Origin: Rickettsiales bacterium
GTDB taxonomy: Bacteria > Pseudomonadota > Alphaproteobacteria > Methylaequorales > Methylaequoraceae
Assembly: GCA_002689325.1 (NCBI GenBank)
Contig: NZFP01000038.1
Location: 1-51,958, forward strand
DNA: 51,958 bases
Reading direction: 5' to 3'
In this document: positions 28,871-34,287 of the stretch, one piece after another
Layout of the letters: each line of letters begins with the position of its first letter
Numbering within the stretch: the first letter of the stretch is position 1
Made by a program: the position numbers and the translations under genes
Notes under the pieces: generated by a model
What the model was told of the DNA's origin: nothing
What the model saw: the letters and a program-made list of their open reading frames with translations, nothing else
Database searches by the model: none

Positions 28871-30202
28871 ATGGATGAATTAAATAAATTTTCGAAAAGA
28901 TTTAAAAGGTATGCTGATTTAGGTACTTCAGCAGGATCTCTTGCTATAAATTTCCTTGGATCTAAAATTTTTAATTCAAAAGATGGAAAAAATGCAGAAG
29001 ATTTATCAAGAATTTTAGGGAATCTTAAAGGACCTATAATGAAGATTGCTCAACTATTATCAACAGTTCCAGATCTTCTCCCAGAAGAATATACTAAGGA
29101 ACTTACAAAACTTCAATCAAGTGCCCCTCCTATGGGATGGAATTTTGTTAAAAGAAGAATGAAAAATGAATTAGGTGATGAATGGTTAAATTTCTTTGAC
29201 TCATTTGAAAAGGAACCTTTTGCTGCAGCATCACTTGGCCAAGTTCACAAAGCGTTATTTAACGGAAATGAGGTTGTTTGTAAATTACAGTATCCTGATA
29301 TGTTGTCTATAGTTGAGGCTGATATCGGGCAGTTAAAATTATTATTTTCAATTTATAAAAAAATAGATCCAACTATTGACACATCAGAGATACAGAAAGA
29401 AATTTCATCAAGAGTCCGAGAGGAACTTGATTATTTTTTAGAACAAAAACATATGGAACTTTTTAACTTCATTTTTAAAAAAAATAAAAAGATTCATATC
29501 CCATATGTTTTAAATGAGATTTCTACTAAAAGACTTCTGACTATGAACTATCTTGAAGGAAAAAAGTTACTTGAGTTCAAAAAAGAATCAAAAAATAATA
29601 AAAAAGAGCTAGCCAAAAATATGTTTGTTGCTTGGTATTATCCTTTTTATAAATATGGTGTTATTCATGGTGATCCACACCTAGGAAATTATTCTGCAAA
29701 TAAGAATTATGAGATAAATTTACTTGATTTTGGTTGTATAAGAATTTTTAAGCCATCTTTTGTTGAAGGAGTCATAAATTTATATCATGCAATTATGCAT
29801 AATGATCAGGATTTAGCAGTAAATGCCTATGAAAGCTGGGGCTTCGAAAATATAAATAAAAAATTAATCGAAATACTAAATATTTGGGCAAAATTTTTGT
29901 ATTCTCCACTTCTAGAAAATAAGGTTAGAAAAATGCAAGAAACTAATTCGACAGCTTATGGAGCAGAAGCAGCAAATAAAGTACATCGTGAATTAAAAAA
30001 AATTGGCGGAGTTAAGCCTCCGAGAGAATTTGTTTTTATGGATAGAGCGGCTATCGGCCTTGGTTCAGTTTTTTTACATCTTGATGCAGAGTTAAATTGG
30101 TACAAAATATTTAATGAACTCATTGATGGTTTCACAGTCAAACAAATTAAACAATGTCAAAAAATAGCTTTAAAAACATCTAAATTGGAAGAAAACTACT
30201 AA
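28871..30202 (+). CDS. ABC1/UbiB/COQ8-family atypical kinase
   Basis: GNLKGPIMKIAQLLSTVPDLLPEEYTKELTKLQSSAPPMG, PFAAASLGQVHKA, HGDPHLGNYS, NLLDFGCIR. Confidence 0.92.
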   Translation: MDELNKFSKRFKRYADLGTSAGSLAINFLGSKIFNSKDGKNAEDLSRILGNLKGPIMKIAQLLSTVPDLLPEEYTKELTKLQSSAPPMGWNFVKRRMKNELGDEWLNFFDSFEKEPFAAASLGQVHKALFNGNEVVCKLQYPDMLSIVEADIGQLKLLFSIYKKIDPTIDTSEIQKEISSRVREELDYFLEQKHMELFNFIFKKNKKIHIPYVLNEISTKRLLTMNYLEGKKLLEFKKESKNNKKELAKNMFVAWYYPFYKYGVIHGDPHLGNYSANKNYEINLLDFGCIRIFKPSFVEGVINLYHAIMHNDQDLAVNAYESWGFENINKKLIEILNIWAKFLYSPLLENKVRKMQETNSTAYGAEAANKVHRELKKIGGVKPPREFVFMDRAAIGLGSVFLHLDAELNWYKIFNELIDGFTVKQIKQCQKIALKTSKLEENY

Positions 30203-30767
30203 CCTTTTGTTGGAAATTTTCAGCTGTAGACAAAAGTTTATCTAATTCAGCCATAGTTTTTGATAAATCTTCAGTATCATCTGACAACCAAGTTTTAAAT
30301 GTAATAGAATAGATAAAAAATAAAAAATTTTTTTTCAAAAAATCAAAAGCATAATTATTATATGAATTTGATAACTCAAGAAAAAAATCCATAGTATTCA
30401 TTACATTTTTAGTAATAATTGAGATCAACAATGGTTTATTTTTAGAAACATCTAATATTTTTACGAGTGAACCTTTAAAACCTTCCATTTCATCAAACCT
30501 CATCATTATTAGTTCAAAAAGAATGTCTTTTTTTGAGGAATCCTTAAAATCATCGATTCTTAATTTTGATTCAATATTTTTGTCAATCATTCTTGAAAAT
30601 TTATCAACAATAGAATTTTTACATTTAAAGAAAACTTTTAGGTCGTTAATTGGAATCTTTTCTTTAGTTGAAAGTTTTTCTAAAGAAAATTCCTCCCACC
30701 CAATGTCATTAATTAGATCAAACCCTTTCTTTATATATTTATTTTCTGTTTCTGTTGAATTATTCAT
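30180..30767 (-). CDS. COQ9/TetR-fold family protein
   Basis: N-terminal HTH-like region (GWEEFSLEKLSTKEKIPINDLKVFFKCKNSIV) and C-terminal TWLSDDTEDLSKTMAELDKLLSTAENF, which resembles the COQ9 C-terminal motif. Confidence 0.65.
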   Translation of the reverse strand: MNNSTETENKYIKKGFDLINDIGWEEFSLEKLSTKEKIPINDLKVFFKCKNSIVDKFSRMIDKNIESKLRIDDFKDSSKKDILFELIMMRFDEMEGFKGSLVKILDVSKNKPLLISIITKNVMNTMDFFLELSNSYNNYAFDFLKKNFLFFIYSITFKTWLSDDTEDLSKTMAELDKLLSTAENFQQKVSSFLPI

Positions 30768-30841: not shown

Positions 30842-31234
30842 ATGATAAATAGATCTTTTATAATCACATTGCTTGGATTTTTCTTAATTTCCTTAAGTGC
30901 AAATGCTGGTGATGCTGAAAAAGGGAAAAAAGTTTTTAAGAAATGTGCAGCTTGTCACAACGTTGCTAGCGGTGCAAAGCACAAGACTGGTCCAAATCTT
31001 TGGAATATTGTTGGGGCTAAAGCCGGGATCCAAGACGGTTATAAATATTCTGATTGGTTAAAGGGCGCTGGCATTGAGTGGAACGATGAGAACTTAGCAG
31101 CTTGGGTTGGTAAAAAAAAAGAAAAAACAGCAAAATTTGGTAAGGATGTAAAGAAAAGCAAGATGATATTTGCTGGTCTTAGAAAAAAAGAACAAGTTGC
31201 AGATCTTATTGCTTATTTAAAGACACTCAAGTAA
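30842..31234 (+). CDS. Class I c-type cytochrome (c2/cytochrome c550-like)
   Basis: Signal peptide, GKKVFKKCAACHNV haem site, GPNLWNIVG, KSKMIFAG distal Met. Confidence 0.95.
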   Translation: MINRSFIITLLGFFLISLSANAGDAEKGKKVFKKCAACHNVASGAKHKTGPNLWNIVGAKAGIQDGYKYSDWLKGAGIEWNDENLAAWVGKKKEKTAKFGKDVKKSKMIFAGLRKKEQVADLIAYLKTLK

Positions 31235-31244
31235 CTTTTTATTA

Positions 31245-31757
31245 ATGAAAATTGAAGAAATTGAAAGTTTCATAGGAAAGGTTCCTGATTTTCCCAAACC
31301 TGGTATCCTTTTCTATGACATTTCAACTCTTATTTATAACAATGAAGCTTTTGCCTCCTCATTAGAAAAGTTTGAAGAATTATTTGATGAATATAAGTTT
31401 GATACCATAGCAGCAATAGATGCTAGGGGCTTCATATTTGGATCAGCTTTAGCTCACAAACTTAAACTTGGAATGATTATGATTAGAAAAAAAAATAAAT
31501 TACCAGGAAATAAAATTTCGTTTGAATATGATTTAGAATATGGAAAAGATACTCTTGAGATAAATATAAATGTTAAAAATAAAAAATTCTTACTTATAGA
31601 TGATCTTTTAGCAACAGGTGGAACAGCAGATGCCGCGGTAAAATTAATTGAAAAAGCTGGTGGAAAAGTTTCTTGCTTTGGATCATTGATAGAACTATCT
31701 TTTTTAAATGGGCGCGAAAAACTTTCTGTCCCTGTTCAAACGCTTATTAAGTATTAA
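31245..31757 (+). CDS. apt: Adenine phosphoribosyltransferase
   Basis: IGKVPDFPKPGILFYDIS, AIDARGFIFGSALAHKL, LLIDDLLATGGTADAAVKLIEKAGG. Confidence 0.95.
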   Translation: MKIEEIESFIGKVPDFPKPGILFYDISTLIYNNEAFASSLEKFEELFDEYKFDTIAAIDARGFIFGSALAHKLKLGMIMIRKKNKLPGNKISFEYDLEYGKDTLEININVKNKKFLLIDDLLATGGTADAAVKLIEKAGGKVSCFGSLIELSFLNGREKLSVPVQTLIKY

Positions 31758-31759
31758 TT

Positions 31760-32470
31760 ATGACAAGAGCACACAAACTTTTTCTAAAGTGGTTACTACA
31801 ATTTAATTTAATTTTTTTTTTCATCTTTTTTGCATTTGACCAAGGCTTAATTTTAAAGATCCTTTCGTCCGACAAAAGCTACATTACAAGCTTAATCTCA
31901 TTAATTTTCATTCTTGTTAGTGGACACTGTGCATTCTTTACGTTTAAGGTTTCAAAAGAACTTAATAAAGCTCATGTTATAAAAAAAAGCCTGCTAAATG
32001 AAAATGTTAAATTAAAAATTATTGATCAAAGCCTTATTCTTACATCGAAAGGCGAGATCGCTGGTGGTATTGTGTGCGATTATTTCAAAGATTTAATTGG
32101 ATTAAAAAAAAGCGGAGCATCCTCTCATGTCCAAATTCTTGATACCTATGTTAAAAAAGCCAATGGGTTTTTTGAGTTTGGGTGGTTTTGTTCAGACATA
32201 ATGCTTAAATTAGGCTTAATAGGTACCGTAATTGGTTTTATAATTATGCTAAGTTCTCTAGCTGATATTACCACTTTTGATGTAACTCTTCTTCAGGGAG
32301 TTCTCACGACAATGGGAAGTGGTATGGGTGTGGCACTTTATACAACTTTATCCGCACTTGTTACAGGGGTTTTAATTGCAATTCAATATTATAATTTAGA
32401 ATCTGGTTGTGAAGAACTTTTTTCTGTACTCAATCAAATTTCAGAAGTAAGTATCGACAAGAGTATGTGA
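31760..32470 (+). CDS. MotA/TolQ/ExbB-like proton channel family membrane protein
   Basis: Multiple TMs; LKLGLIGTVIGFIIMLSSL...LLQGVLTTMGSGMGVALYTTLSALVTGVLIAIQY resembles the TolQ/ExbB/MotA core. Confidence 0.75.
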   Translation: MTRAHKLFLKWLLQFNLIFFFIFFAFDQGLILKILSSDKSYITSLISLIFILVSGHCAFFTFKVSKELNKAHVIKKSLLNENVKLKIIDQSLILTSKGEIAGGIVCDYFKDLIGLKKSGASSHVQILDTYVKKANGFFEFGWFCSDIMLKLGLIGTVIGFIIMLSSLADITTFDVTLLQGVLTTMGSGMGVALYTTLSALVTGVLIAIQYYNLESGCEELFSVLNQISEVSIDKSM

Positions 32471-32471
32471 T

Positions 32472-33068
32472 ATGTCTTATTCTGGAAGAAGATTAAGGGC
32501 TGACCCTTTCACAGACTTATTATTCAATGTATTGTTATCTTTTACATTATTAATGTTTCTTGCTATAATTTTTATGAATCCAATTCCCAAAACTGGTGTT
32601 ATTAATCCAAAGGCAGAATATATAATAACAGTAAGTTGGGCTGATAATAATCCTGATGATATTGATACTTATGTTCAAAACCCAACAGGAGGGCTGGTTT
32701 GGTTTAGAGGTAAAGAATCAGAATTTGTTCATTTAGATCGAGATGACAGAGGTTTGCTTAATGACACTATTATGGTAAATGGCGAAAAAATACAAAATCC
32801 CCTTAATCAAGAAGTAGTAACATTACGTGCTGTCGTTCCCGGCGAATATATTGTGAATGTTCATTACTATGCAACAAAAACAAATCAACCTATCGATGTA
32901 AATGTTAAAGTTGAAAAGGTCAACCCTCAGCTTGAAGTGATTTATTATGGAACAATTAATTTAGAAAAAAAAGGTGTAGAAAAAACTGCAACAAGATTTA
33001 ATATAACACAAGACGGAATAGTTAATGTGACAGGTAACTTATTCAAAAAACTAGTACCGGAGAACTAA
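32472..33068 (+). CDS. ExbD/TolR-like single-TM protein with DUF2135/YfaP-like periplasmic domain
   Basis: DPFTDLLFNVLLSFTLLMFLAIIFMNP (Asp before the TM, as in ExbD/TolR), then VSWADNNPDDIDTYVQNPTGGLVWFRGKE and VPGEYIVNVHYY. Confidence 0.65.
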   Translation: MSYSGRRLRADPFTDLLFNVLLSFTLLMFLAIIFMNPIPKTGVINPKAEYIITVSWADNNPDDIDTYVQNPTGGLVWFRGKESEFVHLDRDDRGLLNDTIMVNGEKIQNPLNQEVVTLRAVVPGEYIVNVHYYATKTNQPIDVNVKVEKVNPQLEVIYYGTINLEKKGVEKTATRFNITQDGIVNVTGNLFKKLVPEN

Positions 33069-33073
33069 GTCAA

Positions 33074-33595
33074 ATGAGCACAGAAGTATTTTTTATTATT
33101 ATATGTTATGTTTTTATTGGTTTTTTACTTATATTATTTAACCTAAGAACAACTTATCACTGGATTATAAAATCCTCACTAATAATTATAACTTTAGTTT
33201 TTTATATATTTACCTACAAATCTTTCACCAATTTAGTTGGTTGGCCCACCAGTGCTTCACTTCCAGAAAGGTTTAGGCTTATATCAGCTCAGATATATGA
33301 ACCAAATACATTACTTAATATTGAGGGAGCAATTTACCTTTGGGTAACTAATATGGATGATCTCGCTGGGCTAGGAGTACCAAGATCATTTAAAATAAAT
33401 TACAACAAAGAATTACATGAAAAAATTTCGAAATCATTAGTTAATCTCAAAAATGGCGTACCCCAAATGGGCGAGAATTTGGATGATGAAAAAAAAGGAA
33501 TAATTTCAAGTCTTTTAAAAAAAGAAAAAATTACTACTGTTAGTACAACATTAAACTTTTTTGATATGCCTAACCAACTATTACCTGAAAAATAA
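33074..33595 (+). CDS. Membrane-anchored protein of unknown function
   Basis: Two N-terminal TMs, then GWPTSASLPERFRLISAQIYEPN...GAIYLWVTNMDD...GVPRSFKINY; part of the contiguous operon. Confidence 0.65.
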   Translation: MSTEVFFIIICYVFIGFLLILFNLRTTYHWIIKSSLIIITLVFYIFTYKSFTNLVGWPTSASLPERFRLISAQIYEPNTLLNIEGAIYLWVTNMDDLAGLGVPRSFKINYNKELHEKISKSLVNLKNGVPQMGENLDDEKKGIISSLLKKEKITTVSTTLNFFDMPNQLLPEK

Positions 33596-34287
33596 TGCGT
33601 TTATTAGTATTAATTTTTTGCATAATTTCTTGTTCTGAAAATTCATCTCAATACTTCCCCTTAGATAAAATTAAAAAATGGTCCTACAGCGTAGAGATTA
33701 TCCCTGAGGTTGAGAATAAAGCTTTATATAAAAAGACACATCTTTCAATGGGCGAAAAAAAAGTATCACTAAATGATAAAAAGAAAAACCTGTTTCCTAT
33801 TTTAAGGGAAAATGGAACAACACTTTTTTATGAATTCCTTGATGATGGTATTTACAGAGTTGGAAAAAAGTTTCTTAAAGAAAAGAAAATAACAGCCGAA
33901 ACCAAAAGAATGGTTTTACCAGTCCCACTTACACTTGATAAAACCTGGAATGTAGACAGCGAAACTTATTTGATTTTAAGAAAATATCCATATTATGATT
34001 ATAGAGCCACAACCAATTTTAAGCTCAACTATAAAGTTGCTTCAATGAAAGAAACGGTCAATACACCCTCTGGGACTTTTAAGGATTGTATTCTAATTAT
34101 TGGTAACGGAAAAACAAACTTCATTGGAAACAATGAAATAGGATCTATTGGTATAAAGATTTATTCTAAAGAATGGTATTCAAGAACAATTGGGTTAATA
34201 AAGATGGAAAGAATAGAAGAAACTGATACAGATTTATTTGGAACAACAAAAATGGTTCAACTCCTAGAAAGTTACCAAAAATTTTAA
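33595..34287 (+). CDS. Putative lipoprotein of unknown function; paralogue of 5163..5876
   Basis: MRLLVLIFCIISC lipobox-like N-terminus; start overlaps the previous stop (TAATG); shared motifs with 5163..5876. Confidence 0.7.
   Translation: MRLLVLIFCIISCSENSSQYFPLDKIKKWSYSVEIIPEVENKALYKKTHLSMGEKKVSLNDKKKNLFPILRENGTTLFYEFLDDGIYRVGKKFLKEKKITAETKRMVLPVPLTLDKTWNVDSETYLILRKYPYYDYRATTNFKLNYKVASMKETVNTPSGTFKDCILIIGNGKTNFIGNNEIGSIGIKIYSKEWYSRTIGLIKMERIEETDTDLFGTTKMVQLLESYQKF

Follow-up and report, generated by a model that had tools for sequence, protein, structure and literature searches.

Four tightly packed ORFs, labelled A, B, C, and D here, lie at positions 31760 to 34287 of the window, the 51,958-nucleotide stretch of DNA that was analyzed, and the first of them resembles the polytopic subunit of a stator. 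TolQR, ExbBD, and MotAB are established proton-driven stator pairs coupled to periplasmic or outer-membrane work, and the locus raises the question of whether it encodes one of these systems or a motor of another kind. A preliminary description, made from the letters of the window, had proposed a proton motive force-driven envelope machine with its own partners, outside the named systems. Our analysis supports this reading, to which we assign a probability of about 65%: A-B-C would be an inner-membrane proton-driven motor of the 5:2 type (the MotA-MotB/ExbB-ExbD/TolQ-TolR class) whose tip and third subunit are both new and which acts on the envelope. The three genes co-occur outside the window genome, canonical Tol genes are located elsewhere in it, and we infer proton conduction and 5:2 assembly from the sequences.

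Locus layout and genome context

The four ORFs form part of a tight run with the following features.

30842 to 31234: cytochrome c gene, first of the run
31245 to 31757, plus strand: apt (Pribosyltran domain), a context gene found next to A across the family
31760 to 32470, plus strand: A, MotA/TolQ/ExbB-type polytopic membrane protein, 236 amino acids (aa)
32213 to 32239, plus strand: A residues 152 to 160, the G-L-I-G-T-V-I-G-F motif of transmembrane segment 3 (TM3) with the pore threonine T156, from alignment with the genome's own TolQ and ExbB
32342 to 32347, plus strand: A residues T195-T196 in TM4, the latter at the alignment position of the TolQ/ExbB pore threonine
32472 to 33068, plus strand: B, single-TM protein with a predicted periplasmic beta-sandwich, 198 aa
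32514 to 32516, plus strand: B Asp15 in the P-F-x-D TM motif (here P-F-T-D15), the proposed proton-binding residue, from family conservation
32658 to 32753, plus strand: conserved periplasmic acidic site of B (D63, D65, L88, R90-D91-D92, and G94)
33074 to 33595, plus strand: C, 173 aa, with two TM segments, a small alpha/beta domain predicted to be periplasmic, and a P-E-K conserved at the C terminus
33595 to 34287, plus strand: D, DUF3108-like lipoprotein with lipobox I-I-S-C13, 230 aa
34288 to 35298, plus strand: PerM/AI-2E-type permease (AI-2E_transport, 134 bits), a context gene found downstream of D in the family

The positions, the common strand, and the spacing given in the preliminary description were confirmed (A/B gap, 1 nt; B/C gap, 5 nt; C/D overlap, 1 nt), as was the placement between apt, which ends 2 nt before A, and the permease gene, which starts at the base right after the end of D.

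The window genome (assembly size, 1.3 Mb) is of the HIMB59/AEGEAN-169 type; among the matches listed, the named genomes closest to it come from uncultured marine Alphaproteobacteria, including MED-G10, labelled HIMB59. The order apt-A-B-C-D-permease is kept across the family of the window genome. Relative to two same-genus genomes, the dN/dS values are 0.024 to 0.025 for A, 0.016 to 0.019 for B, and 0.024 to 0.049 for C, and they are higher for D (0.063 to 0.065) and apt (0.076 to 0.084). The recurring order, together with the low values of the core genes, argues that the arrangement is not due to chance. B is present in 28 of the 31 relatives from the family, the three genomes without it being 65% to 77% complete; C is missing from the same three and present in the 15 others that were checked. 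The HIMB59 locus is thus core, single copy, and slowly evolving; that a streamlined marine lineage has conserved A-B-C implies that its task is important.

Five other loci of the MotA/TolQ/ExbB type were found, which makes A-B-C one of six in this streamlined genome. Located on other contigs, ybgC-tolQ-tolR-tolA-tolB (L001) and exbB-exbD-exbD-tonB (L003) were recognized by reading the ORFs, and their TolR and ExbD proteins were confirmed by PF02472. Two further loci (L002 and L006) encode Mot-like pairs with OmpA-type B subunits, assigned by eye. In the fifth (L004; G000:C10), a MotA/ExbB-like gene is followed by two genes whose products each have an ExbD-like TM, the first of them being a VWA protein; an apparent formylglycine/SUMF-type enzyme gene adjoins this locus. 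Since the genome carries canonical Tol and Ton operons at other sites, A-B-C is an extra motor candidate and its first pair is not the canonical TolQ/TolR. The flanks of the pair (apt, C, D, and the permease) also agree with the earlier statement that TolA/TolB, TonB, Pal, and an OmpA-like domain are absent from the locus. A canonical Tol, Ton, or Mot identity was ruled out by this domain content and by the separate Tol and Ton operons, and in the window genome A-B-C is a conserved motor candidate, probably with a housekeeping role in the envelope besides those of Tol and Ton.

Just upstream of the run, an ABC1/UbiB-type kinase gene (28871 to 30202, plus strand) and a convergent COQ9/TetR-like gene (30180 to 30767, minus strand; the COQ9 match is sub-threshold) form a pair that suggests ubiquinone functions.

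Predicted properties of proteins A, B, and C

The description of A as a MotA/TolQ/ExbB-like poly-TM protein was borne out. MotA_ExbB (PF01618) matched it with 32.4 bits (Pfam cut-off, 22.9), four TM segments were predicted by hydropathy, and the profile of the A family (62 relatives) matched solved MotA, TolQ, and ZorA chains with E values of 2e-5 to 0.09. When A was aligned with TolQ and ExbB of its own genome, the G-x-x-G-T-V-x-G motif and the TM4 threonine were seen to be kept. In the family alignment, G152 and G155 are invariant and T156 occurs in 92% of the members, whereas T196 is found in all 62; among 116 viral copies, T156 is retained in 95 and T196 in 115. As judged from these alignments, A is a distant but genuine member of the MotA/TolQ/ExbB proteins.

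Protein B had been called an ExbD/TolR-like single-TM protein, which holds for its TM segment with the P-F-x-D motif and not for its periplasmic domain. The Asp15 residue is conserved in 60 of 66 rows of the B family alignment and in 118 of 119 viral copies, and five of the 66 rows, from a presumed Bradyrhizobium group, have a valine at this site and an aspartate four residues earlier. Such valine-bearing copies were seen in loci L145 to L149 and L128 to L138. When B was compared with TolR and the ExbD proteins of the same genome by hhalign, only 16 columns in the TM stretch were aligned (probability, 4%; E value, 0.009). The ExbD/TolR periplasmic domain (PF02472) was not matched in B, and the three PF02472 proteins of the genome are all encoded elsewhere. 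In the AlphaFold2 model (pLDDT, 79.8), a helix at residues 12 to 35 precedes an all-beta domain, in line with which no OmpA-like peptidoglycan-binding domain was matched in Pfam. No Pfam family matched B above the cut-off, DUF2135 and PPC being sub-threshold matches; profile searches did not match a vWA domain, and a PDB fold search with the loosely Ig-like model gave no significant match. The periplasmic part of B is therefore predicted to be a beta-sandwich that is weakly DUF2135-like. We know of no periplasmic domain of this type in the MotA/TolQ/ExbB superfamily.

The acidic site of B listed above is invariant across the 66 rows and present in almost all of the 119 viral copies, and it belongs to a wider periplasmic signature, with W56, E114, G124, and E170, that is essentially invariant, phages included. 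Its acidic cluster (D63, D65, D91, and D92) could bind a cation, and together with the variable partners of the module this would be compatible with a transporter or ion channel that has no mechanical output and in which the B sandwich serves as a gate or ligand-binding domain. We regard such a channel as quite improbable, because the conserved pore threonine and the TM aspartate are features of the stator class and no transporter fold was recognized.

The earlier view of C as a two-TM protein agrees with its model (pLDDT, 76.9, which is moderate), in which a small alpha/beta domain accompanies two TM helices. Because the loop joining the helices is positively charged, this domain is predicted to be in the periplasm. 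Pfam, NCBIfam, and PHROG gave no match to C, nothing significant was found among PDB sequences, and a fold search of the PDB with the model was also without a significant match; no family library searched recognized B or C above its cut-off. The S-H-L-S motif of the TonB/TolA type does not occur in C of the window, and there is no histidine among the C positions conserved at 80% or more.

Distribution, accessory genes, and phage copies

Relatives of B were found on at least 547 contigs in a first scan. In even genome samples, and with an E value below about 1e-20 as a strong match, B is carried by about 55 of 385 alphaproteobacterial and 40 of 369 gammaproteobacterial genomes (about 1 in 8; roughly 11% to 14%). 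All three genes are present in 71 of the 80 loci fetched from these samples; part of the remaining nine are explained by truncation at a contig end, by weak matches, and by a single lineage that carries additional solitary B genes. In the first 151 loci, A-B-C is complete in all but 7 (three contig ends, the odd genome G191 counted twice, and an unrelated long protein in G242 counted twice). The survey of gene neighborhoods, set beforehand as a test, thus found the co-occurrence across Alpha- and Gammaproteobacteria and in phages, and A-B-C is, to judge from these sequences, a fixed module inherited as one unit in both bacteria and phages. Solitary B genes without A or C were observed at L389:7518-8754, L392:576-1187, and L393:7445-8050 in two genomes (G1101 and G844) that also have full A-B-C; a B-domain protein with a signal-peptide-like start is encoded just after a solitary B gene (L389:8218-8754).

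The lipoprotein nature of D, noted earlier, was upheld by its lipobox, whose C13 is conserved in relatives, and by DUF3108_like (PF21347; 29.9 bits; cut-off, 27); the D profile also matched the solved lipoprotein 4fvs (E value, 3e-5). However, D is present in just 11 of the 80 sampled loci and was rejected as a core part. Of the four-gene module originally proposed, the A-B-C core, which travels together, therefore stands, and the lineage-specific D does not belong to it. D is probably in the outer membrane, its location and joint work with A-B-C being read from gene order only. In one locus (L027, genome G089), A-B-C is followed in a single run by three paralogues of DUF3108-like lipoproteins.

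In other lineages, many Gammaproteobacteria among them, A-B-C is accompanied by a VWA-FHA protein (identified by Pfam), an L,D-transpeptidase, and a DUF302 lipoprotein, and no locus has both D and the VWA-FHA protein. Because the accessory genes vary so much from lineage to lineage, they do not point to any one envelope task. Quinoprotein-related genes are found near 18 of the 80 sampled loci, 2 of which were counted from a START-domain match only; within about 7 to 8 kb, they encode PQQ dehydrogenase, a SoxYZ-like carrier, a quinoprotein-relay hydrolase, and MxaJ-like proteins. They make it attractive in some lineages to think that A-B-C assists quinoprotein (PQQ) dehydrogenase systems of the periplasm, for instance by energizing cofactor or metal loading or electron-carrier handling. 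As a general role, this is very unlikely: most loci are without such genes, the one PQQ_2 gene in the window genome resembles the gene for BamB, and there is no evident need for such a service in phages. A dedicated quinoprotein role was accordingly set aside for the window genome and for most loci.

Sequenced Rhizobium and Sinorhizobium phages also encode B relatives. In phages P10VF, N3_19, and I1_18, B lies between a short A and C, and in phage 16-3, where p038, p040, and p042 are A, B, and C, small ORFs are interspersed among the three genes. In IMG/VR, 190 and 39 stretches encode relatives; the module is present in about 200 viral contigs, and contigs are up to 527 kb long. A, B, and C follow each other in order in 113 of the 119 viral loci examined; three are truncated where the contig begins, and in three no C is recognizable. 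Viral A proteins are short (median, 168 aa, versus 236 aa in the window). A PHROGs scan of 74 neighboring proteins recognized a late sigma factor, UvsX, exonucleases, primase/helicase, head closure, and major head proteins, which indicates that the contigs are largely genuine phage; the phage A, B, and C proteins that were tested had no match among the PHROGs families. In 17 of about 125 phage loci, a gene for a secreted trypsin-like protease is located near A-B-C (for example, L154:4214-5113, L156:9234-9926, and L158:4018-4740).

Cellular and viral branches are intermingled in trees of B, with well-supported branches forcing three label changes in the first tree and two in a larger sample. 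Exchange of B between phages and cells is thus likely, as judged from these trees, in which support is patchy and the root is not known, so that a direction of transfer is not given. The recognized phage neighbors are mostly DNA-metabolism genes, not lysis genes, which suggests use during infection and not a lysis module. We tentatively propose, as a possibility that falls short of an even chance, that A-B-C of tailed phages, T4-like and very large phages among them, is a complete miniature proton-driven motor that is deployed in the host inner membrane during infection, e.g., for superinfection exclusion or for holding or remodeling the envelope, and that the bacterial versions, including that of HIMB59, are related to it by repeated exchange. 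To our knowledge, no virus-encoded stator-type motor has been known; if the proposal is true, phage A-B-C would be the first.

The same phage setting could be read in terms of defense. A-B-C might act as a Zorya-type sensor that exerts no force, senses disturbance of the envelope by phage entry or cell-wall damage, and signals, and phages might carry it to exclude competitors. ZorA models match 50 of the 62 A family members weakly but consistently (best E value, 5e-9), the phage copies lie among DNA-metabolism genes, and gammaproteobacterial loci adjoin a VWA-FHA protein and a two-component system. We nevertheless consider a sensor unlikely. No ZorC/ZorD-type effector was found adjoining, A is without the long ZorA tail, and B is without an OmpA-like domain, by which Zorya identity as such was ruled out; in addition, the HIMB59 locus is retained as a core element in the family, unlike patchy defense systems. 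The absence of a ZorC/ZorD partner from the locus had been remarked on before and was confirmed: PADLOC gave no match to ZorC/ZorD (or ZorE) effectors among B, C, and D, and the other flanking genes were identified by Pfam as unrelated.

Proposed mechanism and comparison with known systems

In the proton-driven motor that we favor, A would form a pentameric channel or wheel and two B subunits its axle. Protons would pass between Asp15 of B and Thr156/Thr196 of A, and B would be turned or stroked. The force-transmitting end would consist of C, with its two TM segments, and the B beta-sandwich, which takes the place of an ExbD or OmpA-like domain. Lineage-specific partners may then link the motor to envelope work, namely, D in HIMB59 and the VWA protein, L,D-transpeptidase, and DUF302 lipoprotein in many Gammaproteobacteria.

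TolQ-TolR and ExbB-ExbD resemble A in the MotA_ExbB domain and the GxxGT and threonine motifs and B in the P-F-x-D TM segment, and their genes have the same order (A and then B). However, A-B-C is without PF02472, TonB, TolA, TolB, and Pal and has a beta-sandwich tip and an extra two-TM core subunit, C. MotA-MotB and PomA-PomB are similar in having a four-TM A and a single-TM B with an aspartate, whereas B here has no OmpA-like peptidoglycan-binding domain. With ZorA-ZorB of Zorya, the similarity is that of a remote A subunit: the ZorA models have 545 to 648 positions, and the 236-aa A matches only their core.

Searches of open-licence papers yielded no description of A-B-C, and queries on DUF2135 with ExbB, phage-encoded ExbB/TolQ, and HIMB59 motors gave nothing relevant; a FlcA-regulated MotA/TolQ/ExbB gene reported in Azospirillum could not be tied to the A family. 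The closest accounts are two recent ones. As far as its available portions go, PMC12204202 (Mol Biol Evol 2025) describes motor-linked vWA force transducers and uncharacterized 5:2-type motors that have a noncanonical periplasmic domain on the transpore helix or vWA partners. Locus L004 resembles the paired transpore-helix vWA motors of that paper, whereas a beta-sandwich B, subunit C, and phage carriage are not among the features described in those portions; next to A-B-C, a separate VWA-FHA gene is seen in some relatives only. PMC12505986 (mBio 2025), in its corresponding portions, treats generic ion transporters with DUF appendages, including the A-subunit domains DUF3450 and DUF2341; these belong to the same broad superfamily and have accessory domains whose function is not known, and the B type, C, and phage copies reported here are not described in those portions.

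Understood proton-driven envelope motors are few (flagellar, Tol, Ton, gliding, and Zorya). A-B-C would add a further class to them, distinguished by a third core subunit and by a periplasmic tip of its own, and its presence in isolated Rhizobium phages makes its function testable in laboratory phage-host pairs.
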